This document shows, in pieces, positions 42,269 through 63,126 of a stretch of DNA of 64,000 nt (the stretch's first letter is position 1; each line of letters starts with the position of its first letter). Source of the DNA: Candidatus Saccharimonadota bacterium (lineage in GTDB: Bacteria; Patescibacteriota; Saccharimonadia; Saccharimonadales; UBA4665); assembly GCA_025928155.1 (NCBI GenBank), contig JAICKC010000001.1, positions 1-64,000 of the forward strand. Direction: 5' to 3'. The notes under the pieces are model-generated. The model ran no database searches. It was not told the DNA's origin and was given only the letters and a program-made list of their open reading frames with translations. The translations under genes were made by a program, and so were the position numbers.

Positions 42269-42406
42269 AAGTAAGCGTTGCTACCCTCCATGTTTAAGCG
42301 CCCGACCCGCTGCTGGTGCTTATTGTACGGTTATGGTTCCGGCGTGCGCAAGTCTTACAACACAATTTTACAACTGTGCAAACCGCGTATGCTTTACAAT
42401 AAGCCT

Positions 42407-44065
42407 ATGCAAGCCTCTCGTTCCACCTTACTGCTGACCCGCTTGGTGGCATACACGGTGTTGGCGTATGGTGTTGCCATTATCGCTGACGTGCTACTTA
42501 GACAATTACGGGTACATCATGGGCATAAGCTGGATTTGCTGCTCATAACGGTGCCGCAGATTACAGGTCTGGGGTTTATGTACCTGGGCACACTGCTGCT
42601 TAGGCGTAAATATAATGCCTGGCTGGTGGCGCTCGGACTGGCCGGCGCATCGTTTGTGCTTGATGTGTGGCATGGCGCAGTGCAGTCGCACATCTATGGT
42701 GATACGGGCAAGTTTGTTCGTCCGCTCATCACCCTCCTGCTTATATTGGTGTTGTGGCTGACCCGAGGCGCGTTTCGAGTAAAAAGCGACGTGCGTACTT
42801 TTACGCAGGCGCTATGGGTAAGTGCGCTAGTGTTCATAGTGGCGTTTTTGTATGGAATGGGTGGTTTTACGTTGCTTGATGAGCGCGATTTTCATCATGA
42901 GATCAGCCCGATTACTGCCGCGCACCAGACTATTGACCAGTTTGGGCTGACAGATGACCACCCGGTAGCGTATACACGCCGGGCACGGTTATTTCTGGAT
43001 TCGTTATCGGTCATTAGCATCTCGGCAGTGGGCTACGCGGCGATCTCATTTTTTGAGCCGATCCGGGTGCGCCTAACGAGCCAGACCGTGCAGCGCGCCA
43101 AAACTTCGCGCTTACTTGACACTTATCCGAGCGATCTCGACGACTACTTTAAGCTGTGGCCACACGACAAGCTGTATTACTTTGATGCCACGGGCGAGGC
43201 GGGTCTGGCCTATCACGTAACACGCGGCGTGGCGCTCGTGGCCGGCAATCCCTTCGGCAACCCGATACATTTTGTATCATTGTTACGTCAGTTTATGGAG
43301 CTGTGCTTTGTAAATGACTGGCTGCCGTCATTCATCCACGTGAGCGGGCAACATCGGGAGCTGTACGAAACACAGGGTTTTCGGCTGCAAAAGATTGGTG
43401 AGGAAGCAGTGCTGGATCTAATGGCGTTTGAGACGGCGCGGCGCGATAAATATTTCCGGCAAATCGGTAACAGATTTACTAAGCTCGGCTATAGCGTAGA
43501 GGTAATGCAGCCGCCGCACGATACAGCCTTACTCGCCCGTTTGCAGGAAGTTTCGGATGAGTGGTTGACACGTCCGGGGCGCGAAGAACGCGGTTTCATG
43601 CTGGGTTACTTTGACGAGGCGTATCTGCAGCAATGTCCGCTCGTGCTGCTGCGCGGCGCCGATAAACGTATCCAGGGCTTTATCAACCTGGTGCCGACAT
43701 TCGAAGTTCACGCGGCTAACTACGACCTACTGCGGTGCAGCGGGGACGCGCCGGGCAATGCCAACGATTTTCTGATGCTCGGTGCTATCGGCTATCTGCA
43801 CGGAAGCGGTTTGCAGACGCTCAATCTGGGACTCTGCCCACTTTCTGGAGTGGATGCGCCGGATAGCGACGAAAAGACAATCATCGACCAGGCGTTGCGC
43901 TTTGTGTATGCCAATGGCGACCGGCTGTATAGCTTCAGCGGACTCAAGCGTTTCAAAGCCAAATACCAGCCGGAGTGGCGGCCGCGCTACGTTGCCTATC
44001 CTGGTGGCGTACGCAACTTTACGCGCGTGCTTACGGCACTTAACCGAGCTATGCGGGTCAAGTAG
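42407..44065 (+). CDS. MprF-like C-terminal (DUF2156) aminoacyl-phosphatidylglycerol synthase-type protein with N-terminal TMs
   Basis: YYFDATGEAGLAYHVTRGVALVAGNPFGNP; QIGNRFTKLGYSVEV; GFINLVPTFEVHAANYDLLR; DFLMLGAIGYLHGSGLQTLNLGLCPLSGV. Confidence 0.85.
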   Translation: MQASRSTLLLTRLVAYTVLAYGVAIIADVLLRQLRVHHGHKLDLLLITVPQITGLGFMYLGTLLLRRKYNAWLVALGLAGASFVLDVWHGAVQSHIYGDTGKFVRPLITLLLILVLWLTRGAFRVKSDVRTFTQALWVSALVFIVAFLYGMGGFTLLDERDFHHEISPITAAHQTIDQFGLTDDHPVAYTRRARLFLDSLSVISISAVGYAAISFFEPIRVRLTSQTVQRAKTSRLLDTYPSDLDDYFKLWPHDKLYYFDATGEAGLAYHVTRGVALVAGNPFGNPIHFVSLLRQFMELCFVNDWLPSFIHVSGQHRELYETQGFRLQKIGEEAVLDLMAFETARRDKYFRQIGNRFTKLGYSVEVMQPPHDTALLARLQEVSDEWLTRPGREERGFMLGYFDEAYLQQCPLVLLRGADKRIQGFINLVPTFEVHAANYDLLRCSGDAPGNANDFLMLGAIGYLHGSGLQTLNLGLCPLSGVDAPDSDEKTIIDQALRFVYANGDRLYSFSGLKRFKAKYQPEWRPRYVAYPGGVRNFTRVLTALNRAMRVK

Positions 44066-51532: not shown

Positions 51533-53050
51533 ATGTTGTGGCTTATTGGCCTGCTGGCACTGGAAACAGTGCTTGAGGGGCTCCTGTGTGGCCTGAACGC
51601 TGGCACGAATGCACGCCAGCGGAAGGCAATGTCTGTTATCTGTATTACAACACTCGCGGTTGTGACGGTACTGCTAAGCACACGGCTATGGCGTGTATGG
51701 CTCTGGAGCGTACCATTTGCAGCGTACCGTATCGTAAACTTACTACGAGTGTACACGGCGCGATTGCCGCAAGCCCGCCTGAAGGCGGTGGCCTGGGGAG
51801 CGTTCTTTTGGCTCACCCTTGTCCAGTTGTCGCTGCTACTGGTTACGTGGGGAACGCACGAATTGCATCAGGGGCGACTGTTATTGAATACCACCATGGC
51901 CTTGCAGCTACTGGGCGCCGTATTACTGCTACGCTCTACCCTACACACCTGGCAGCATGCCGCGCTGCAGCGTAGCGAAAAACCACTGAGCGATCGCCAG
52001 CTGCCGTCTTTAAGTGTATTGGTGCCAGCCCGCAACGAAACTGCTGCGCTGCGAACATGTCTTGAGGCGTTAGTGGCGAGTGACTACCCTAAGCTCGAGA
52101 TATTGGTGCTCGACGACTGCTCGGTCACACGGCGCACGCCGGAAATCATCCGCGACTTTGCCCATAACGGTGTACGGTTTATACAAGGTAAGCTGCCGGA
52201 TGAAACGCGCTGGCTCGCTAAAAACTATGCCTACGAAGAACTGGCGGAAGCCGCCAGCGGTGACCTTTTCCTGTTTTGCGGCGTCGACACGATATTCGAA
52301 CCGCATACTATTCGCCGTCTGGTGAACATATTGGAAGACCGCGGCAAGAATATGCTCAGTGTTATGCCGCTTAGGCAGCACGTCAGCCGTGGTGGCAACT
52401 CTCTGTTCCAAACGATGCGCTACTACTGGGAACTGTGCTTGCCGCGGCGGGTTTTTAAACGGCCGCCGGTTCTCAGTACCTGTTGGCTGATCCGGCGCGA
52501 GGCACTTACCAAAATGGGTGGATTTGCCGCCGTAAGTCATAGTATTAGTCCGGAAGCGACCTTTGCCCGCGAGGCCGTTACCACTGATAGCTATAGCTTT
52601 ATACGCAGCGACGACTCTTTGGGCATGTATAGCAACAAACCCGCTGGCGAGCAGTACGATACCTCGGTGCGCGTGCGCTATCCACAGCTCCACCGCCGGC
52701 TTGAACTGGCGGCCCTGATGAGCATAGCGGAGCTGGTGTTTTTGCTGGGGCCGTTCGTGGGGCTGTTGCTGGCCGGCGAGCTGCCGCGTACCCTCGCGTA
52801 TGTGCTGGTCTGGAGCCTGACACTTGTCTTCTTGTTTGTTACTTACGGCTTTGCGTCGGTTGGCGCCCGGCTGGCTAACCCGTGGTACGGCTGGCTGCTG
52901 ATGCCGGCGGCGTTTGCGTTGGATCTTATGGTGCTGCACATCTCGCTGTGGAAGTATGAATTTGGCACGGTTGACTGGAAGGGTCGCAATGTATGCCTGC
53001 CGGTGATGCAGTTGACTAGTGCTGAGCCTGCGGCAAGTTCGGAACGGTGA
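51533..53050 (+). CDS. membrane GT2 glycosyltransferase
   Basis: LSVLVPARNETAALRTCLEALVASDYPKLEILVLDDCS; LFCGVDTIFEP; multiple TMs. Confidence 0.88.
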   Translation: MLWLIGLLALETVLEGLLCGLNAGTNARQRKAMSVICITTLAVVTVLLSTRLWRVWLWSVPFAAYRIVNLLRVYTARLPQARLKAVAWGAFFWLTLVQLSLLLVTWGTHELHQGRLLLNTTMALQLLGAVLLLRSTLHTWQHAALQRSEKPLSDRQLPSLSVLVPARNETAALRTCLEALVASDYPKLEILVLDDCSVTRRTPEIIRDFAHNGVRFIQGKLPDETRWLAKNYAYEELAEAASGDLFLFCGVDTIFEPHTIRRLVNILEDRGKNMLSVMPLRQHVSRGGNSLFQTMRYYWELCLPRRVFKRPPVLSTCWLIRREALTKMGGFAAVSHSISPEATFAREAVTTDSYSFIRSDDSLGMYSNKPAGEQYDTSVRVRYPQLHRRLELAALMSIAELVFLLGPFVGLLLAGELPRTLAYVLVWSLTLVFLFVTYGFASVGARLANPWYGWLLMPAAFALDLMVLHISLWKYEFGTVDWKGRNVCLPVMQLTSAEPAASSER

Positions 53051-54143
53051 GCGTGAACGTAGAACCGTGATTGAGTTCGCTGGTGACGTCTATGTTGGCT
53101 TGCAATAGTGTGGCGAGCTTTTGAGTGATATAGAGCCCCAGGCCAGTGCCGTTGCTGGCGCGGGTGCGGTAATCTTCGCTGCGGAAAAACTTGCGGAAAA
53201 TCTTTTGCTGATCGGAGCGGCTCATGCCGATGCCGGTGTCTTGAATGCTAAAACGTATGCCGTTTTCGGCCATGTGCGCGCCGACGGTAACGCTGCCCTG
53301 CTGAGTGTATTTAATGGAATTGGTAATAAAGTTATGCAGAATCTCGCGGATATATAGGTTGCTGCTGTGTAACGTTTCGAGCGACGGGTCGAGATCGGTT
53401 TTGATCTCCAGCCCTTTAGCTTTCGCCTGGTCACGGTAGCCAGCGGCGAGTTCTTCGACGAGCTGGTGTGGGTTGATGGCGTCCACCGTCATCTGTAGCG
53501 CGCCGCGCTCGGCCCGGCTCAAAGTGGAGAGGTCGTTGACCAAGCCGCTCAAAAACAATACCTGGCCGTAGGCGGCGTCGAGTGCCTTTTGTACTTCGGT
53601 GATGTTGCCGGATTTTCGGGCGATAAACTGGGCGTTACTGATGTTACCCTCGGTTATGGCAATGGGCGTGCGCAGCTCATGACTGACCACGCTGATGAAC
53701 TCATCACGCTCTTCTTCGAGCGACTTTTCGCGTGTAATATCGCGCAGCACGAGCACATAGCCACAATCGCTACTTTCACCGTAGCCGAGGTAGACTGGCG
53801 CAATGGACAGATAGAGGTTGGCGGTGCTGCCATCGCTGTAGCGTAGGAGGTAGTCACGGCTACTGACGGGCGTTTTGGCACCGCCGATAAGGGTGTGCAC
53901 GCTCACCGCAGCACCGTCTTTGTCGTAGAGCCGTAAGATGCTACTTAGGGATTTACCGGCAATGTCCCCGTTTTTGTCGAGCAGGTCAAGCGCAGCACCG
54001 TTGTAGAGTTCGATGTTACCGGCCGCATCCACAGCCAGCACGCCGTCGGCCATACTGCCGATGAGGCTGACGAGCCATTCGCGCTCGGGTATGCTCGGAT
54101 TATCCTGCTGCTTTCTACTACCATGTACCGTACTGGCGTCCAT
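53016..54143 (-). CDS. soluble PAS-domain sensor histidine kinase
   Basis: PAS region; EFISVVSHELRTPIAITEGNI (HisKA); HNFITNSIKYTQQGSVTV, FSIQDTGIGMS, GTGLGLYITQKLA. Confidence 0.95.
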   Translation of the reverse strand: MDASTVHGSRKQQDNPSIPEREWLVSLIGSMADGVLAVDAAGNIELYNGAALDLLDKNGDIAGKSLSSILRLYDKDGAAVSVHTLIGGAKTPVSSRDYLLRYSDGSTANLYLSIAPVYLGYGESSDCGYVLVLRDITREKSLEEERDEFISVVSHELRTPIAITEGNISNAQFIARKSGNITEVQKALDAAYGQVLFLSGLVNDLSTLSRAERGALQMTVDAINPHQLVEELAAGYRDQAKAKGLEIKTDLDPSLETLHSSNLYIREILHNFITNSIKYTQQGSVTVGAHMAENGIRFSIQDTGIGMSRSDQQKIFRKFFRSEDYRTRASNGTGLGLYITQKLATLLQANIDVTSELNHGSTFTLTVPNLPQAQH

Positions 54144-54225: not shown

Positions 54226-55911
54226 TTACTGTTCGAGCGCGGTAGCGGCGAGCGTGGTCAGGGTCGTGTGGTTCTTCTGTCCGTTCAAGACAGTACTGAG
54301 CGGCTGCAGGTCGATTGGCTGATGCTTATTGATCGTGTTGATACCGAAGACGACGCGGTCGCTCGGTTGTGTTTTGTAGCCAAGTCCATTGCTCTCGTTG
54401 CCAGCAAAGAGGACACGGGTAGCTCCACTGGTCACCAGCTGGTAGTTGACGTTTACAAAATGGTTATTGCTGATGTCTGCGCCGTTGGTGCTGTCGTATA
54501 GATACACCCCACGTTTGCCGCCGTAGAAGGTGTTGTTTTCAACGTAATTCTGGATCGAGCCGGCATTAATACGAACTTGGCTGCCGCGAGGATTGTAACC
54601 ACGGTTATTCTGCACTGTGTTGAGGCTCGAGCCGTATATGACGAAATTGTCCTGGTTACCAATCGCTATGTTGTTTTTGAATATGTTGTAGTCTGAGTTG
54701 TCGTGCAGCATGAAGCCGTGATATTTGTTGTCGATGGAGATGTTGTTTTCGATGATGTTATAGTCGCAGCGCTTGGAGACAATGAAGCCATGTTTACCGT
54801 TGGCGACGAAGCGGTTGTACTCAATCGTAGCATTGTTGCTGTCGTCATGGGGGTCGAGGCCGTAGATGCGGTTGGCGGTAAACAGGTTGCTGGTCCACAT
54901 CATACCTTGCGCACCGAAGGTGAAAGCTCCAATGTTGTTATGGCTGAACGTACTGTTCTGTACCCAGCCGGTCACGATGTTCTCCCCGAACGAACCGGTC
55001 GCGATCCGCCAAGATACACCGTAGACACCGCCTTGGGCTGCAAATGGTACCTTGGCAATGACATCCTTGCTCCTAATCTGCTCGATAGTCATACCGAGAT
55101 ATGAGGCGGTAGCGTTGAGCATGTCCATGCGGCCATTGTCATACGCACGGACAAAACTGCGGCCATCTGAAATGTTAGTGTCAGGCTGACCGGTGGTCGG
55201 GTCGTAGCTGCTGATGTGTACGCCGTTAAAGAGTGTCTCAGCGTTTTGAAAGGTCAATGTCGTGATGCTGTAGTTCGGCTGGCTTCGCAGGTAGAGAGTG
55301 CTGACCGTGTCGCTGGTGACGTCGACTTGGATATTGTCCTGGATGTACAGTGGGATATTAATCATGTACGTTTTGGGCCCCAGCTGCGTAATGCCGTTGT
55401 ATGGCTGCACCATCCTCATGAGATCGGGAATGGTTAGATGTGCTTCCGGGTTTACGAATCGGTTGTTAACGTAGATGACACCCTGTCTTTCAGTGACGGT
55501 GGCGGCGGAAGCAGTGTCGGCGCTTGCCGGAAATGGAGCGAGCGGATGTTCGACCGGGGGTACTTTAATGGTGGTGCCCCACACCACCTGGCCTGGGTTG
55601 AGCTGCTGCAGTTCCGCAAGGCTTACACTGAAGTGCGCGGCAGCCCAGGCGAGGTCTTGCCCTTCCTGTAGCTTGTAGTACGCGAACTTGGTGCCGTACG
55701 TCGGCCGAGCTGCTGTCATGGTTGCTTCGGCTGATTGCCAGCCGTCGGTCACCAGGCGAGCGTTACCGCGATTAGCTAGCTGGGTCATGAGCTCAGGCCC
55801 GAAAGTGAGGTAGAGGGTGGCAACGCCGATAACGAGCGGTATGACGACAACGAGCGCTCGTATTGGCGGCCTAAGGTGTTTGGTAGGGTGTGTCGTCGAT
55901 CGCCTTTTCAT
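54226..55911 (-). CDS. AlgG-like mannuronan C5-epimerase: N-terminal TM, LysM-like domain, right-handed beta-helix
   Basis: YYKLQEGQDLAWAAAHFSVSLAELQQLNPGQVVWGTTIKVP (LysM-like); YGLDPHDDSNNATIEYNRFVANGKHGFIVSKRCDYNIIENN (DPHDxS motif in beta-helix repeats). Confidence 0.82.
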   Translation of the reverse strand: MKRRSTTHPTKHLRPPIRALVVVIPLVIGVATLYLTFGPELMTQLANRGNARLVTDGWQSAEATMTAARPTYGTKFAYYKLQEGQDLAWAAAHFSVSLAELQQLNPGQVVWGTTIKVPPVEHPLAPFPASADTASAATVTERQGVIYVNNRFVNPEAHLTIPDLMRMVQPYNGITQLGPKTYMINIPLYIQDNIQVDVTSDTVSTLYLRSQPNYSITTLTFQNAETLFNGVHISSYDPTTGQPDTNISDGRSFVRAYDNGRMDMLNATASYLGMTIEQIRSKDVIAKVPFAAQGGVYGVSWRIATGSFGENIVTGWVQNSTFSHNNIGAFTFGAQGMMWTSNLFTANRIYGLDPHDDSNNATIEYNRFVANGKHGFIVSKRCDYNIIENNISIDNKYHGFMLHDNSDYNIFKNNIAIGNQDNFVIYGSSLNTVQNNRGYNPRGSQVRINAGSIQNYVENNTFYGGKRGVYLYDSTNGADISNNHFVNVNYQLVTSGATRVLFAGNESNGLGYKTQPSDRVVFGINTINKHQPIDLQPLSTVLNGQKNHTTLTTLAATALEQ

Positions 55912-57515
55912 TGCCTGCTCCCAGTTGGTTGGATGTAGTACACCAGAGTTTGTCCGACGAGTATCCTCGAAGGACTTGTAATACCGTTCAGTTTTTTCAG
56001 CGTCGTTTCATCCATGCCAAGTTGCGCGGCGATTCCGGTCAGCGTGTCTCCCTGTTGGATAGTGTAAGTCTTTACGTCGCTCGCAAAGATAGCATCGGGC
56101 AAGATCCTCGGCTGCGTCGGTACGTTGGCGGTTAAGGATGTCGATACGTCAAACTCGCCAGGACGTACTGGCGTCGGTATTGGTATGACGACGGCCGCCT
56201 GCTTGTTTGCCTGGTCGATGAAGCGAGCGGTCAAGAAAAAGATGGCAGCAATGCCGAGTACACCGACCAGTACAGTGGCCCAGCGGCGGATGAGACGGCG
56301 GCGCATGCGACTTTTGTGCCACCGTGTTGCCCAGGAGTTCTCAAGGATGGTAGCGAGAGCATACACCTTCACGATGGCGTTTGTGTAGGTATATACGACC
56401 CAGGCTGGCAGATAAATCAGACGCTTTGGGTAGTGTCTGAAGTAGCTGAATAGGCGAACGGTACGGCTGATGAGCCACCAACAGACCAATACACTTACCA
56501 GTATCCAGCGGTGCTGGATGGCGCCGATTACTGCGGCGGTGGGGCCGAGAAGCATAAAGAATGGCTGCACAAATCTATCAAGCATGAAGTAGGCCAGTAC
56601 CGGATAGCGAAAGACCCAGCCGCGCCGGATGGCCCGCAAGTCAGCTCGCCAAGAGTTGCGTGTCCAGCGCAGGCGCTGCTTCATAAATTTCTTGAAATGG
56701 CCGAGACCCTGGGTGTAGACAACGGTATTCGGGGAGTAGCCGACTTTCCAGCCCTGCTCTAAGATGAGGTGCGACAAACGCTTGTCGTCGCCGGAAATAG
56801 CGCGAGCATTCATAAAGAATTCATGCATGAGGTCGTGCACGTTGTCATAGTGTTCGTTGATGAGCGCTTCGCGGCGATAAATAGCGGTGCGTCCAGACAG
56901 GGTGTTGTAGGCCTTGCCGAGGCCGAGCAGGAATGGCACCTCCTCGCGGTAGCGATTCCAGAGGAGCATGTCGAAGAGAACGTTGCTGATCGTATCCGGA
57001 TTGCTGACGCGCTGAGGTACGGTGACGCCGCCCATCTTTGGGTCGGTGAAGTACGGCAGCGTACTCTCTCGTACGTTGTCTGCCCAGAGAGTATCGGAGT
57101 CGACTAGCGCGACTAAATCACCGGTGGCCCGTTCAATACCGTCGCAAAGCGCGGCACGTTTGCCGGGTTTGGGGGTGACGATCAGGCGACACTTGACATC
57201 TTTGCGCGGTACGTAGTGCTTTTCAAAATTGAGGATGTGGTGTGTGTTGCTCTTGTCGATAACGGCGACAATTTCGTCGACGCCGTTTTTAATCCAAGAT
57301 GTAAGTGCCTCCTCAAATAGCTGTTCGTCTTCGTTATAGACCGGCGTAACGATACTTGTCGTGAGTTTTTGCGTTTCGGGGTCAATGGGTTGCTTGGCGA
57401 ACTGTGCTGCCTCACGGCGATATAGTGTAGCGCCCAGCTGACGTACGAGCCAGTAGGACCAACGCCATAAACCAATGAACGAGAGTGGGATGTACAGGAG
57501 GAGAGTTTGGAGCAT
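55908..57515 (-). CDS. processive GT2 synthase (Alg8/hyaluronan synthase-like) with C-terminal LysM
   Basis: SIVTPVYNEDEQLFEEALTSW; LVDSDTLW; SGDDKRLSHLILEQGW; KQRLRWTRNSWRADL; C-terminal YTIQQGDTLTGIAAQLGMDETTLKKLNGITSPSRILVGQTLVY. Confidence 0.88.
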   Translation of the reverse strand: MLQTLLLYIPLSFIGLWRWSYWLVRQLGATLYRREAAQFAKQPIDPETQKLTTSIVTPVYNEDEQLFEEALTSWIKNGVDEIVAVIDKSNTHHILNFEKHYVPRKDVKCRLIVTPKPGKRAALCDGIERATGDLVALVDSDTLWADNVRESTLPYFTDPKMGGVTVPQRVSNPDTISNVLFDMLLWNRYREEVPFLLGLGKAYNTLSGRTAIYRREALINEHYDNVHDLMHEFFMNARAISGDDKRLSHLILEQGWKVGYSPNTVVYTQGLGHFKKFMKQRLRWTRNSWRADLRAIRRGWVFRYPVLAYFMLDRFVQPFFMLLGPTAAVIGAIQHRWILVSVLVCWWLISRTVRLFSYFRHYPKRLIYLPAWVVYTYTNAIVKVYALATILENSWATRWHKSRMRRRLIRRWATVLVGVLGIAAIFFLTARFIDQANKQAAVVIPIPTPVRPGEFDVSTSLTANVPTQPRILPDAIFASDVKTYTIQQGDTLTGIAAQLGMDETTLKKLNGITSPSRILVGQTLVYYIQPTGSRQ

Positions 57516-57517
57516 AA

Positions 57518-58420
57518 CTAGGCTGCTTCTACGGTAGCAAGGTGGTTGATACTGACTTTCTGGTTTTGGCCCAGGAGTTTCTCGTGGCGGAGGTTTTCGG
57601 TAATGACACTGCGGAGTATACCGAAGTCAAAGCCGTTTGTCTCTCCCCACTCAAGTAGTGCGCGAGTGTCTTTTGGCAGGCATGAGCCGTCAAACGGGCC
57701 ATAGTCACGAATGCCATATACCGGATTCCACATGCCTTCACAGCTTTCGGCGGTGGCGCGGAAGACTTTGTCGGCGTCCCATCCCTTCTCTTTGATAGCA
57801 ATGCGCATCTCGTTGAAGAAGGCGATTTTAACAGCATTGTACACATTGTGTACATACTTCTGGATCTCAGCTTCTTCGATAGAGCAGTGCTCGATAGGGG
57901 CGTTAAAAGGCCGGTATAGCTTGTCCACGGTTTTGCCGGAGCGTTCATCGAGTTCGCCGATAAGTACAAACCACGGGCGCTCGAAGTCCTGGGCTGCAGT
58001 TACTTCACGGAGATATTCGGGCTGCATGACGACACCGAAGCCCTTGCCGGCCTTTTTGCCGGACAATTTTTCAACGTACTTGATCATCTCACGGGTGGTT
58101 TGCGGTGGCACCGTTGAGCGGATAACCATGACATGGTATGCCTTGTGTAGCTTGAGACGGTTAGCAAAGTCGGTTATGGCTGACTTTAGAATATCGAGCT
58201 GAATGTGTTTTGCCTTGGTGGGCGTCGGCACACAAAACAGCGTGACGTCCGTGTCTATTTTCGTATACTCTGAGGCTACTTCAGCTCGATAACCTGCTTC
58301 GCGCAGCTTTGCCACCTTGGCTTCGTCAACATCTACAAATGTGACCTCATTTTTATGCTTGCTTAACCCACGCCCTGTTGCTTCACCTACAAATCCAGCA
58401 CCAACCACTGCTACTTTCAC
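57518..58420 (-). CDS. short nucleotide-sugar dehydrogenase (UDP-Glc/GDP-Man dehydrogenase family)
   Basis: MKVAVVGAGFVGEATGRGLSKHKNEVTFVDVD; VIRSTVPPQTTREMI; EAEIQKYVHNVYNAVKIAFFNEM; FDGSCLPKDTRAL; SD AGGAGG before GTG. Confidence 0.88.
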   Translation of the reverse strand: MKVAVVGAGFVGEATGRGLSKHKNEVTFVDVDEAKVAKLREAGYRAEVASEYTKIDTDVTLFCVPTPTKAKHIQLDILKSAITDFANRLKLHKAYHVMVIRSTVPPQTTREMIKYVEKLSGKKAGKGFGVVMQPEYLREVTAAQDFERPWFVLIGELDERSGKTVDKLYRPFNAPIEHCSIEEAEIQKYVHNVYNAVKIAFFNEMRIAIKEKGWDADKVFRATAESCEGMWNPVYGIRDYGPFDGSCLPKDTRALLEWGETNGFDFGILRSVITENLRHEKLLGQNQKVSINHLATVEAA

Positions 58421-58593
58421 AGAACCTCCTGCATCTTCGACCGTTACGGAAATACGGCATTATCTCTAGTATGTATCTGGTAAAAGTAATACAAGATGGC
58501 AATTTATGCAATAAGGTAGCCTACTTTGTGTTATAAATTACAATTTTCTGACATTGTTGGGGAGCGTTCGGTGATGGGCTAGAATAGATGGGT

Positions 58594-59568
58594 ATGCAGG
58601 AATTTTTCGGTAAGGTGGTGCGTAAGGTAAGACTACCCGGCTGGCCGGGTAACAAGTTCTTTGCGCTGCTCGCACGGCGCCCCAATCTTAGGCTAGCGGT
58701 GCTCGGTACGCTGCTTGCTTGCGTGGTGGCAATCCTAGTGTTTGCGTACCTTTCCCTTTTTACCTACCACCCATCAACCGGGAGTAAGGAGTTAAATCCA
58801 GCTGGAACAAAGCGGTCGGCGTCCGTTAGCCTGAAGTCGAATACTATTCAAACTCAGCCCCGATCCAATCCACCTAGTACCGCGAGTAAGCCGCCGTCGT
58901 CGAGTACCGCAAACTTTCCTGCAGATGTGCTTAGCCTGACCCAGTGGAAGCTGACGCTACCAACCGGGCCGAGTCATGATGCAACCGAGATCCAACAGCC
59001 GCAGCTGGCCAGTTTTGAACTTGCACCGTACTTCCAGCTCAATGCCGCGAAAGATGGCGTTCAGTTCGAGGCCCCAGTCAACGGTTCAACAACCTCAGGA
59101 TCGCAGTACCCGCGGTCCGAACTCCGAGAGATGACGGATAACGGTCGGCAGGAAGCCAGCTGGTCGACGACAGACGGTACAAATACTATGACGGTCCGCG
59201 AGGCGATAACCCACCTGCCTGCCTCTCGATCTCAGGTGGTTGCTGCACAAATCCATGGATCGTCGGCGTACGTTATGCTTATTCGCCTGAACGGTTCTGA
59301 TCTGTTTGTCGAGGGGGACAACGGTAAGAATATGGGTAACCTGGACACGAACTACCGGCTCGGTACGGCGTACACTGTCCAGATCACGGCTATGAACGGG
59401 CGGATCATTGTTTCGTACAATGGAATAGAAAAAGCTAATTTTCCCAACGAGACTTCAGGGGATTACTTCAAGGCGGGCTGCTATACGCAGGCTAATATGA
59501 GTAATGGCGGAAGTGCGAGCGACTACGGGCAGGTCATTGTATATGGTCTGAGTGTGCAGCATTCGTGA
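58594..59568 (+). CDS. membrane-anchored PL7-family alginate lyase-like protein
   Basis: LTQWKLTLPTG; YPRSELREM; VVAAQIHGSSAYVMLIRLNG; DYFKAGCYTQANMSNGGSASDYGQVIVYGLSVQH (three PL7 signature blocks). Confidence 0.9.
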   Translation: MQEFFGKVVRKVRLPGWPGNKFFALLARRPNLRLAVLGTLLACVVAILVFAYLSLFTYHPSTGSKELNPAGTKRSASVSLKSNTIQTQPRSNPPSTASKPPSSSTANFPADVLSLTQWKLTLPTGPSHDATEIQQPQLASFELAPYFQLNAAKDGVQFEAPVNGSTTSGSQYPRSELREMTDNGRQEASWSTTDGTNTMTVREAITHLPASRSQVVAAQIHGSSAYVMLIRLNGSDLFVEGDNGKNMGNLDTNYRLGTAYTVQITAMNGRIIVSYNGIEKANFPNETSGDYFKAGCYTQANMSNGGSASDYGQVIVYGLSVQHS

Positions 59569-62013: not shown

Positions 62014-63126
62014 ATGAAGATTACACGGATGGAGATTCGCAAGCTTAAACTACCGTTACAACGGAGCTTTGCGATGAGCTTTGGCGAGATGAATCGCAAA
62101 GAAACGGTTATCGTTAGCCTGCATACGGCCGATGGGCTAACCGGCTACGGCGAATCTTCCTCATTTTCGGCACCAATGTATACGCACGAAACGAATGATA
62201 CCTGTATGTACATACAGGAACATTTTATTGCCCCGCGCCTTGTTGGTCGGGAGTTTGATACGGTAGAAGAATTCTGCTCTGCTTATCGCAGTGTGGTCGG
62301 TAACCGGATGGCTCGCACTGGGACAGAGTGCGCCTTTTGGCATCTGCTGGCGCAGCGGGATGCCGTTTCATTAAAGCACCTGGTCGGTGGCACGAGAAGT
62401 ACGATTCCCGTGGGCGAAAGTATTGGCATCAAGCAAACCATGGCCGAGACTCTCGAGGAAATAGAGCAGCGGCTGGACGAAGGCTACGTGCGCATTAAGG
62501 TAAAGATTGCGCCCGACTGGGACACCCAGCTGCTGGCGGCAATTCGGGAGCGCTGGCCCGGCATTGATCTTACGGCAGATGCTAACGCGGCCTACCAGTT
62601 TACACAGCATCATAAAACGCTTGAAGCCCTGGATGCATTTAATCTGTCCATGCTTGAGCAGCCTTTCGGTGCTGACGATATGATCGAACACGCCAAACTC
62701 CAAGCCAAGCTCAAAACGTCGATTTGTTTGGATGAGAGCATTGAAAGTTTGGCCGATATCAAGACGGCTGATGCTCTGAGTGCAGGACGGATTGTTAATA
62801 TCAAGCCCGGACGAGTCGGCGGCCTGGTTGAAAGCATAAAAATCCATAATTATGCAGTGGCTCACCATCTTGGGGTGATGTGCGGTGGTACGTTCGAGAC
62901 TGGTATCGGGCGGGCCTTTAATATTGCCCTCGCTTCCCTGCCCGGTTTTATATATCCGGCTGATATGTCACCTTACCAACTTTATTTTGCCGAAGACATT
63001 GTGGAGCCAAGCTACACTGTTAAACTGGATGGTCACATTGACGTGCCAGATACGCCGGGGCTTGGTTTTGCGGTGCGCGAAGATCTGATCGAGCAGTTTA
63101 CTACTCAGAAGGTTGTTGTGCGCTAA
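62014..63126 (+). CDS. enolase-superfamily enzyme, o-succinylbenzoate synthase / N-acylamino acid racemase type
   Basis: RIKVKIAPDWD (KxK), DLTADANAAY, MLEQPFG, CLDESI, NIKPGRVGG, MCGGTFETGIGRAFNIALASLPGF. Confidence 0.88.
   Translation: MKITRMEIRKLKLPLQRSFAMSFGEMNRKETVIVSLHTADGLTGYGESSSFSAPMYTHETNDTCMYIQEHFIAPRLVGREFDTVEEFCSAYRSVVGNRMARTGTECAFWHLLAQRDAVSLKHLVGGTRSTIPVGESIGIKQTMAETLEEIEQRLDEGYVRIKVKIAPDWDTQLLAAIRERWPGIDLTADANAAYQFTQHHKTLEALDAFNLSMLEQPFGADDMIEHAKLQAKLKTSICLDESIESLADIKTADALSAGRIVNIKPGRVGGLVESIKIHNYAVAHHLGVMCGGTFETGIGRAFNIALASLPGFIYPADMSPYQLYFAEDIVEPSYTVKLDGHIDVPDTPGLGFAVREDLIEQFTTQKVVVR

Follow-up and report, generated by a model that had tools for sequence, protein, structure and literature searches.

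A Candidate Minimal Gene Module for an Alginate-Type Polymer, with LysM-Linked Synthase and Epimerase, in Saccharibacteria and Other Patescibacteria

Organization of the Locus

Four neighboring genes on contig JAICKC010000001.1 of a Candidatus Saccharimonadota bacterium encode an AlgG-like C5-epimerase, a processive synthase of glycosyltransferase family 2 (GT2), a short nucleotide-sugar dehydrogenase, and an alginate lyase of polysaccharide lyase family 7 (PL7). The stretch analyzed, positions 1 to 64,000 of the contig, is referred to here as the window. Together, the four genes probably constitute a minimal pathway for an alginate-type (poly-mannuronate/guluronate) polysaccharide, with a LysM-linked synthase and epimerase at the cell surface (Table 1). 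The dehydrogenase, GT2, and epimerase genes form a tight minus-strand operon, and the lyase gene is divergent. The close packing described in the original prediction is borne out by the open reading frames (ORFs), with a gap of 2 nt between dehydrogenase and GT2 and a 4-nt ATGA overlap between GT2 and epimerase. Its coordinates also stand for these three genes; the lyase ORF, ending at 59568, begins at 58588 rather than at 58594.

The host genome comprises 1.30 Mb in 33 contigs and is 98.2% complete and 0.17% contaminated, and the GC content of the four-gene locus is level with that of the surrounding DNA. Because the gene order dnaB-dnaX-rplL-rplJ in the window is the same as that on a contig of Candidatus Saccharibacteria ES-bin-308 (protein identity of 41–63%), the genome is taken as Saccharibacteria-like, in keeping with an earlier description of it as resembling the candidate phyla radiation.

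Table 1. Features of the four-gene locus, with positions in the window
Feature	Position	Strand	Basis
AlgG-like mannuronan C5-epimerase, 561 aa	54226..55911	-	Pfam, sequence and fold matches, AlphaFold model
DPHD catalytic motif of epimerase, residues 353-356	54844..54855	-	motif role from PMC4444821
Processive polymer synthase of GT2, 535 aa, resembling hyaluronan synthase/NodC	55908..57515	-	family and structure matches
C-terminal LysM domain of GT2, residues 484-525	55941..56066	-	Pfam LysM 5.7e-13
Short GDP-mannose-dehydrogenase-like enzyme, 300 aa, without UDPG_MGDP_dh_C	57518..58420	-	Pfam, sequence comparison
Codon of predicted catalytic Cys247 (GPFDGSCLPKD) in dehydrogenase	57680..57682	-	alignment
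Dehydrogenase/PL7 divergent intergenic region, 167 bp (148 bp in G501), presumed promoter	58421..58587	.	promoter role inferred
PL7 alginate lyase, 326 aa, N-terminal membrane anchor (one helix, residues 36-54)	58588..59568	+	Pfam, identity to ALY-1
Alginate_lyase2 (PL7) catalytic domain	58933..59562	+	Pfam

The Encoded Proteins

The epimerase matches the Pfam families Beta_helix (4.4e-17) and NosD (3e-12), and its closest solved structure by sequence is AlgG (4ozy, 1.5e-13). When its AlphaFold model (pLDDT 84.5) was compared with solved structures using Foldseek, the top four matches were all AlgG entries (6.4e-17 to 1.1e-15), and the next family followed at 8.9e-9. The proposed membership of this protein in the mannuronan epimerase family is thus supported by both sequence and fold. 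An N-terminal transmembrane (TM) helix (residues 19–37) is followed by a LysM-like segment (~77–117) and a right-handed beta-helix (~157–503). Both the TM helix and the LysM-like segment had gone unremarked; the latter is predicted as beta-alpha-alpha-beta in the AlphaFold model and was not called by a Pfam scan. A tyrosine lies just upstream of the DPHD motif (YGLDPHD), and YGxDPHD is conserved among the relatives; in AlgG, the histidine of DPHD probably serves as the base, and a water is coordinated by the tyrosine (PMC4444821).

The synthase (Glyco_tranf_2_3, 2e-26) carries the processive motifs LVDSDT, SGDDKRL, and KQRLRW, together with several predicted TM helices, and it ends in a LysM domain that had likewise escaped remark. 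Its best solved relatives are hyaluronan synthases (PDB 8smm and 7sp6), and the comparison with Alg8 put forward originally did not hold.

The dehydrogenase was correctly recognized as a nucleotide-sugar dehydrogenase but proves to be a 300-aa short form, a trait not commented on previously. It possesses the N-terminal (UDPG_MGDP_dh_N, 3e-31) and central (1e-16) domains, with the cysteine of the AlgD-type GxCLPKD motif in place. The C-terminal Rossmann-type domain of the full ~436-aa AlgD (UDPG_MGDP_dh_C) is absent, and the N-terminal domain is ~30 residues shorter than in full-length relatives. A two-row profile searched against solved structures gave AlgD as the best match (5.9e-55, 189.7 bits), followed by UDP-glucose dehydrogenase (1.3e-38, 136 bits), and the single sequence also retrieved AlgD as its best solved relative.

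The lyase falls within PL7, as predicted, with an Alginate_lyase2 score of 142.2 bits (3e-41) against a cut-off of 29.7 and with all three signature blocks present (RSELRE, QIH, and YFKAGxYxQ, the last reading YFKAGCYTQ). Its sequence is not especially divergent, being 48–49% identical to the characterized polyguluronate lyase ALY-1. The glucuronan lyase 7nde is a remote match, at 38 bits against 216. The background of such lyases is low, in that only the window's own genome scored above the cut-off among 384 sampled genomes of the phylum. The resulting impression of a one-off, recently acquired PL7 was rejected, since PL7 adjoins the module in other lineages.

Conservation of the Module

A search of genome contigs with the single epimerase sequence returned no matches, and a three-row epimerase alignment yielded 42 loci, the neighborhoods of which were inspected. 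When 393 genomes of the order were searched in addition, five proved to have the epimerase, counting the window genome and a decayed copy in a congener (G001). No relatives were found in viral contigs, and there is therefore no sign of phage carriage.

Linkage was counted over 14 Patescibacterial loci, of which two with identical proteins, L037 and L038, are perhaps not independent of each other. A dehydrogenase lies close to the synthase and epimerase in 13 of the 14 (none was found in G374), synthase and epimerase are fused into a protein of ~920 aa in eight, and a PL7 gene is nearby in seven. The four genes occur together in G501, where the layout is exactly that of the window, divergent PL7 included; in the 1.0-Mb, single-contig genome G497, where dehydrogenase, GT2, epimerase, a second epimerase, and PL7 follow one another on one strand (locus L096); and, unfused, in a Saccharibacteria metagenome-assembled genome (MAG; L045). 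WWE3, Curtissbacteria, Daviesbacteria, and Moranbacteria have the three-gene core, in most cases with a synthase-epimerase fusion. For example, a WWE3 locus (L036) encodes a dehydrogenase and a 919-aa GT2-LysM-epimerase fusion, and the Curtissbacteria locus (L037) encodes two fusions, a dehydrogenase, and PL7. The module is also carried by Daviesbacteria (L038) and by Moranbacteria in fused (L041 and L044) and split (L040) forms. A further Patescibacteria MAG (L042) has a dehydrogenase, a fusion, and a convergent PL7, and L043 is another locus of the 42 with a module neighborhood. The weakest case of linkage is G457: its PL7, its dehydrogenase, and an epimerase-like gene with DPHT in place of DPHD are spread over one contig, as is a GT2 that shows no detectable similarity to the one in the window. 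Given its recurrence in distantly related Patescibacteria, the gene set is not a product of chance; all four genes are real, and they are conserved together.

Related clusters were found in Streptomyces (L055, L060, and L063) and in an Actinomycetota MAG (L051), each with a short dehydrogenase, a related GT2, and a DPHD epimerase. In the dehydrogenase tree, these and the Patescibacterial short forms stand on one side and full-length proteins of Rhizobiales, checked as AlgD-like, on the other. The Streptomyces/L051 group is the nearest neighbor of the Patescibacterial clade in both the dehydrogenase and GT2 trees, and the two Saccharibacteria pair with full support in both. The trees are midpoint-rooted, with several long branches and some weak inner forks, and the direction of transfer is therefore not readable from them. 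DPHD proteins of Microbacteriaceae, Kineococcus, and others (L047–L050, L052–L054, L056, L057, L059, L061, L065, and L066) were set aside as evidence; their GT2s belong to a different clade, and a nearby dehydrogenase is either lacking or weakly similar.

The decayed copy in G001 (L003:6653-8814) retains an intact epimerase ORF of 51–54% identity in which DPHD has become DASN. Its GT2 is cut to a 162-aa TM-LysM tail, and a search of G001 for the dehydrogenase and PL7 found neither. The joint loss of motif, synthase, and dehydrogenase is as expected if these parts work together, and the intact reading frame suggests that the epimerase keeps another role there.

The second DPHD epimerase of G497 (L096:9903-11273), situated between the first and PL7, has no LysM match and carries a Streptomyces-like SQRC motif; it is possibly a different G-pattern former. 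At L037 and L038, the dehydrogenase and fusion protein are identical in MAGs assigned to Curtissbacteria and Daviesbacteria, respectively, which points either to a recent transfer or to a binning error in one of the two. Beside the module in Moranbacteria (L041:8179-9504 and L040:7106-8413), WWE3 (L036:6358-7731), and L043 (5266-5778), a BNR-repeat (beta-propeller) protein with a membrane anchor recurs; it has no homolog in the window and could be polymer-binding or another uronan-processing enzyme. Finally, two species of the genus possess a second pair of genes, encoding a GT2 and a full-length nucleotide-sugar dehydrogenase (GVGGHCIPVDPYYL type), at L027:6465-9306 (G000:C5) and L028:463-3023 (G002), after which a conserved secreted protein is encoded on the other strand.

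A Proposed Pathway and Its Alternatives

In the alginate-type pathway considered probable here, GDP-mannose would be supplied by enzymes encoded elsewhere in the genome and converted to GDP-mannuronate by the short dehydrogenase. The membrane GT2 would polymerize this into poly-mannuronate and, much like hyaluronan synthase, pass the chain through the membrane itself, with export needing neither Alg44 nor an outer-membrane exporter. The LysM-linked beta-helix epimerase at the cell surface or wall would convert some mannuronate (M) residues of the emerging chain to guluronate (G), and the membrane-anchored PL7 would trim or release the polymer. The fusion order GT2-TM-LysM-epimerase would place the epimerase outside if the usual topology, predicted from hydropathy only, holds. 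From the sequence, we infer that the polymer is alginate, and it could conceivably act as a capsule, adhesin, or holdfast.

With regard to precursors, contig C33 encodes a mannose-1-phosphate guanylyltransferase clustered with two genes of the phosphomannomutase/phosphoglucomutase type; its TIGR01479 score (5.8e-75) is below a cut-off that was set for the bifunctional enzyme. Contigs C21 and C11 each have a piece of galU at an end, suggesting a gene interrupted across the two contigs and production of UDP-glucose as well. Because both nucleotide sugars may be made, the precursor genes were rejected as proof of a GDP-mannose donor. As for export, no genes of the Alg44, AlgK, AlgE, or AlgX type are evident among the neighboring ORFs, in agreement with the original prediction (not every neighbor was scanned, and AlgK, AlgE, and AlgX were not searched for genome-wide), and the PilZ domain, the cyclic di-GMP-binding part of Alg44, was not found in six module-bearing genomes.

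Several observations besides galU weigh against an alginate product. The epimerase scores only 58.6 bits against the NCBIfam AlgG equivalog cut-off of 700 and, judged by its sequence, would be a relative of AlgG rather than the proteobacterial enzyme itself. In place of the classical AlgG SREVD, with its carboxylate-neutralizing arginine, it has S-K/R-R-C, in which basic residues are kept and the register is unsure. QIH does not fix lyase specificity (PMC6165035) and was accordingly rejected as proof of G-specificity. Two WWE3 genomes that bear the module, G297 and G374, yielded no PF00483 nucleotidyltransferase, and the likeness of the dehydrogenase to brown-algal enzymes, described below, was judged from published descriptions. 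Moreover, the GT2 resembles hyaluronan synthase and NodC, not Alg8, and its donor sugar is therefore not readable from homology; by fold alone, the dehydrogenase is about equally near AlgD and UDP-glucose dehydrogenases.

These last two points, along with the probable presence of galU, are what would be expected of an operon making another polyuronate or a mixed polymer (glucuronan, or one like hyaluronan or heparosan), in which UDP-glucose is oxidized, the GT2 polymerizes glucuronic acid with or without N-acetylhexosamine, and the beta-helix protein converts glucuronic to iduronic acid. This alternative is considered unlikely. By sequence, AlgD outscores every UDP-glucose dehydrogenase, the epimerase is AlgG-like, and the PL7 that recurs with the module in seven loci belongs, in the window, to the alginate/polyG-lyase part of its family, remote from glucuronan lyase. 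It is also rather improbable that synthesis and lyase are separate functions, with the operon making a surface polymer and PL7 breaking down foreign alginate, either for nutrition or to gain access to a host. In favor of this reading, most PL7 families are catabolic, the gene is transcribed divergently in the window, and half of the modules have no PL7 nearby. Nevertheless, PL7 is almost absent from Patescibacteria otherwise and yet adjoins the module in seven loci, it is collinear with the operon at three of them (L045, L037, and G497), and alginate producers typically carry a lyase (PMC4444821). An assembly or binning artefact, for which the short contigs of several loci and the identical proteins of L037 and L038 in different phyla might speak, was rejected as exceedingly improbable, given that single-contig genomes (G497, at L096, and G297, at L008) carry the same set and that, in the window, Saccharibacteria-type core genes of equal base composition flank it.

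Neighboring Genes

A PAS-histidine kinase (PnpS/WalK-like; 53016-54143, minus strand) is encoded 82 nt downstream of the epimerase gene and in its orientation, and cotranscription is conceivable; the kinase does not adjoin the module in G497 or G501. Elsewhere in the window, an enolase-superfamily protein (62014-63126, plus strand) scores above the cut-off for o-succinylbenzoate synthase (TIGR01928, 317 vs. 201 bits), which is odd for a reduced genome if the protein does not act on a different substrate. Lipid aminoacylation is suggested by a phosphatidylglycerol lysyltransferase C-terminal domain (2.6e-64) in the protein encoded at 42278-44065 (plus strand).

Comparison with Known Systems

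No report of alginate synthesis in Patescibacteria was found in the open-access papers searched, and the available portion of a 1,733-genome survey places alginate operons mainly in Pseudomonas and reports none in Gram-positive bacteria (PMC7112194). To that extent, the operon appears to be undescribed in the phylum, as first proposed. Its parts are less new, considering that a Woesebacteriota protein has already been noted as near a brown-algal GDP-mannose dehydrogenase (GMD; PMC11468063) and that related sets occur in Actinomycetota.

In common with the alginate operon of Pseudomonas and Azotobacter (algD-alg8-alg44-algK-E-G-X-L...), AlgD-type Rhizobiales versions of which were among the loci retrieved (L071–L077), the module has an AlgD-related dehydrogenase, a GT2 polymerase, a YGxDPHD epimerase, and an associated alginate lyase. 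It differs in that the dehydrogenase is short rather than ~436 aa, the GT2 is hyaluronan-synthase-like rather than Alg8, the epimerase is LysM-linked and often fused to the synthase, and PL7 takes the place of AlgL. In addition, no Alg44/PilZ was found, and AlgK, AlgE, AlgX, and acetylation genes are not evident at the locus. If the proposed pathway is correct, about three proteins are enough for some reduced-genome Patescibacteria to make their own gel-forming polysaccharide, and polymerase and epimerase are often joined in a single chain; the machine of Pseudomonas, by comparison, consists of many proteins and spans the envelope. This would be a compact system for the study of alginate synthesis in cells lacking a classical outer membrane. 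An anionic gel of their own making would be a candidate factor in adhesion or capsule formation for Saccharibacteria.

Hyaluronan synthase, represented by the best-matching solved structures of the GT2, likewise polymerizes and translocates as one protein, whereas the GT2 described here has an extra C-terminal TM helix and LysM (or LysM plus epimerase) and a different predicted donor. The Streptomyces and L051 clusters share the short dehydrogenase and related GT2 but have GT2 and epimerase as separate genes, with no PL7 found in the retrieved stretches; these clusters are testable in culturable strains.

In some features, the module resembles the alginate genes of brown seaweeds, as described in the literature, more than those of Pseudomonas. 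Brown-algal GMDs are 315–320 aa in length, with an incomplete N-terminal Rossmann fold, the motif Pro257-x-GGxCLPKDV, and a catalytic Cys close to residue 260; their activity on GDP-mannose has a Km of 177–289 uM (PMC4782291). The size, Cys position, Pro spacing (P242 to C247, as published for the algal enzymes), and shortened Rossmann region of the window dehydrogenase all fit these published descriptions, from which we infer that the two are of the same family; a 2024 study found a brown-algal GMD to be 40% identical to the Woesebacteriota protein mentioned above (PMC11468063). Both systems also have an epimerase with DPHD, which in the algae is the mannuronan C5-epimerase ManC5-E, and lack an Alg8 homolog (PMC11468063), again comparing by description only. 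The bacterial module is an operon with LysM domains and PL7, and brown algae have PL41. A review has the alginate-specific steps of brown algae transferred from an actinobacterium (PMC8307928), whereas the 2024 study found such a transfer not strongly supported and noted the candidate-phylum match (PMC11468063). It is a tentative and rather doubtful possibility that the Patescibacterial/actinobacterial module belongs to the lineage that gave brown algae alginate synthesis, with the short dehydrogenase belonging to the algal GMD family and the conserved GT2, rather than Alg8, as the counterpart of the algal mannuronan synthase. The 2024 study states that the mannuronan synthase of brown algae has yet to be validated and that the brown-algal GT2s are without Alg8 homology (PMC11468063); a GT2 encoded beside a GMD-like dehydrogenase and a ManC5-E-like epimerase could serve as bait for finding that enzyme.

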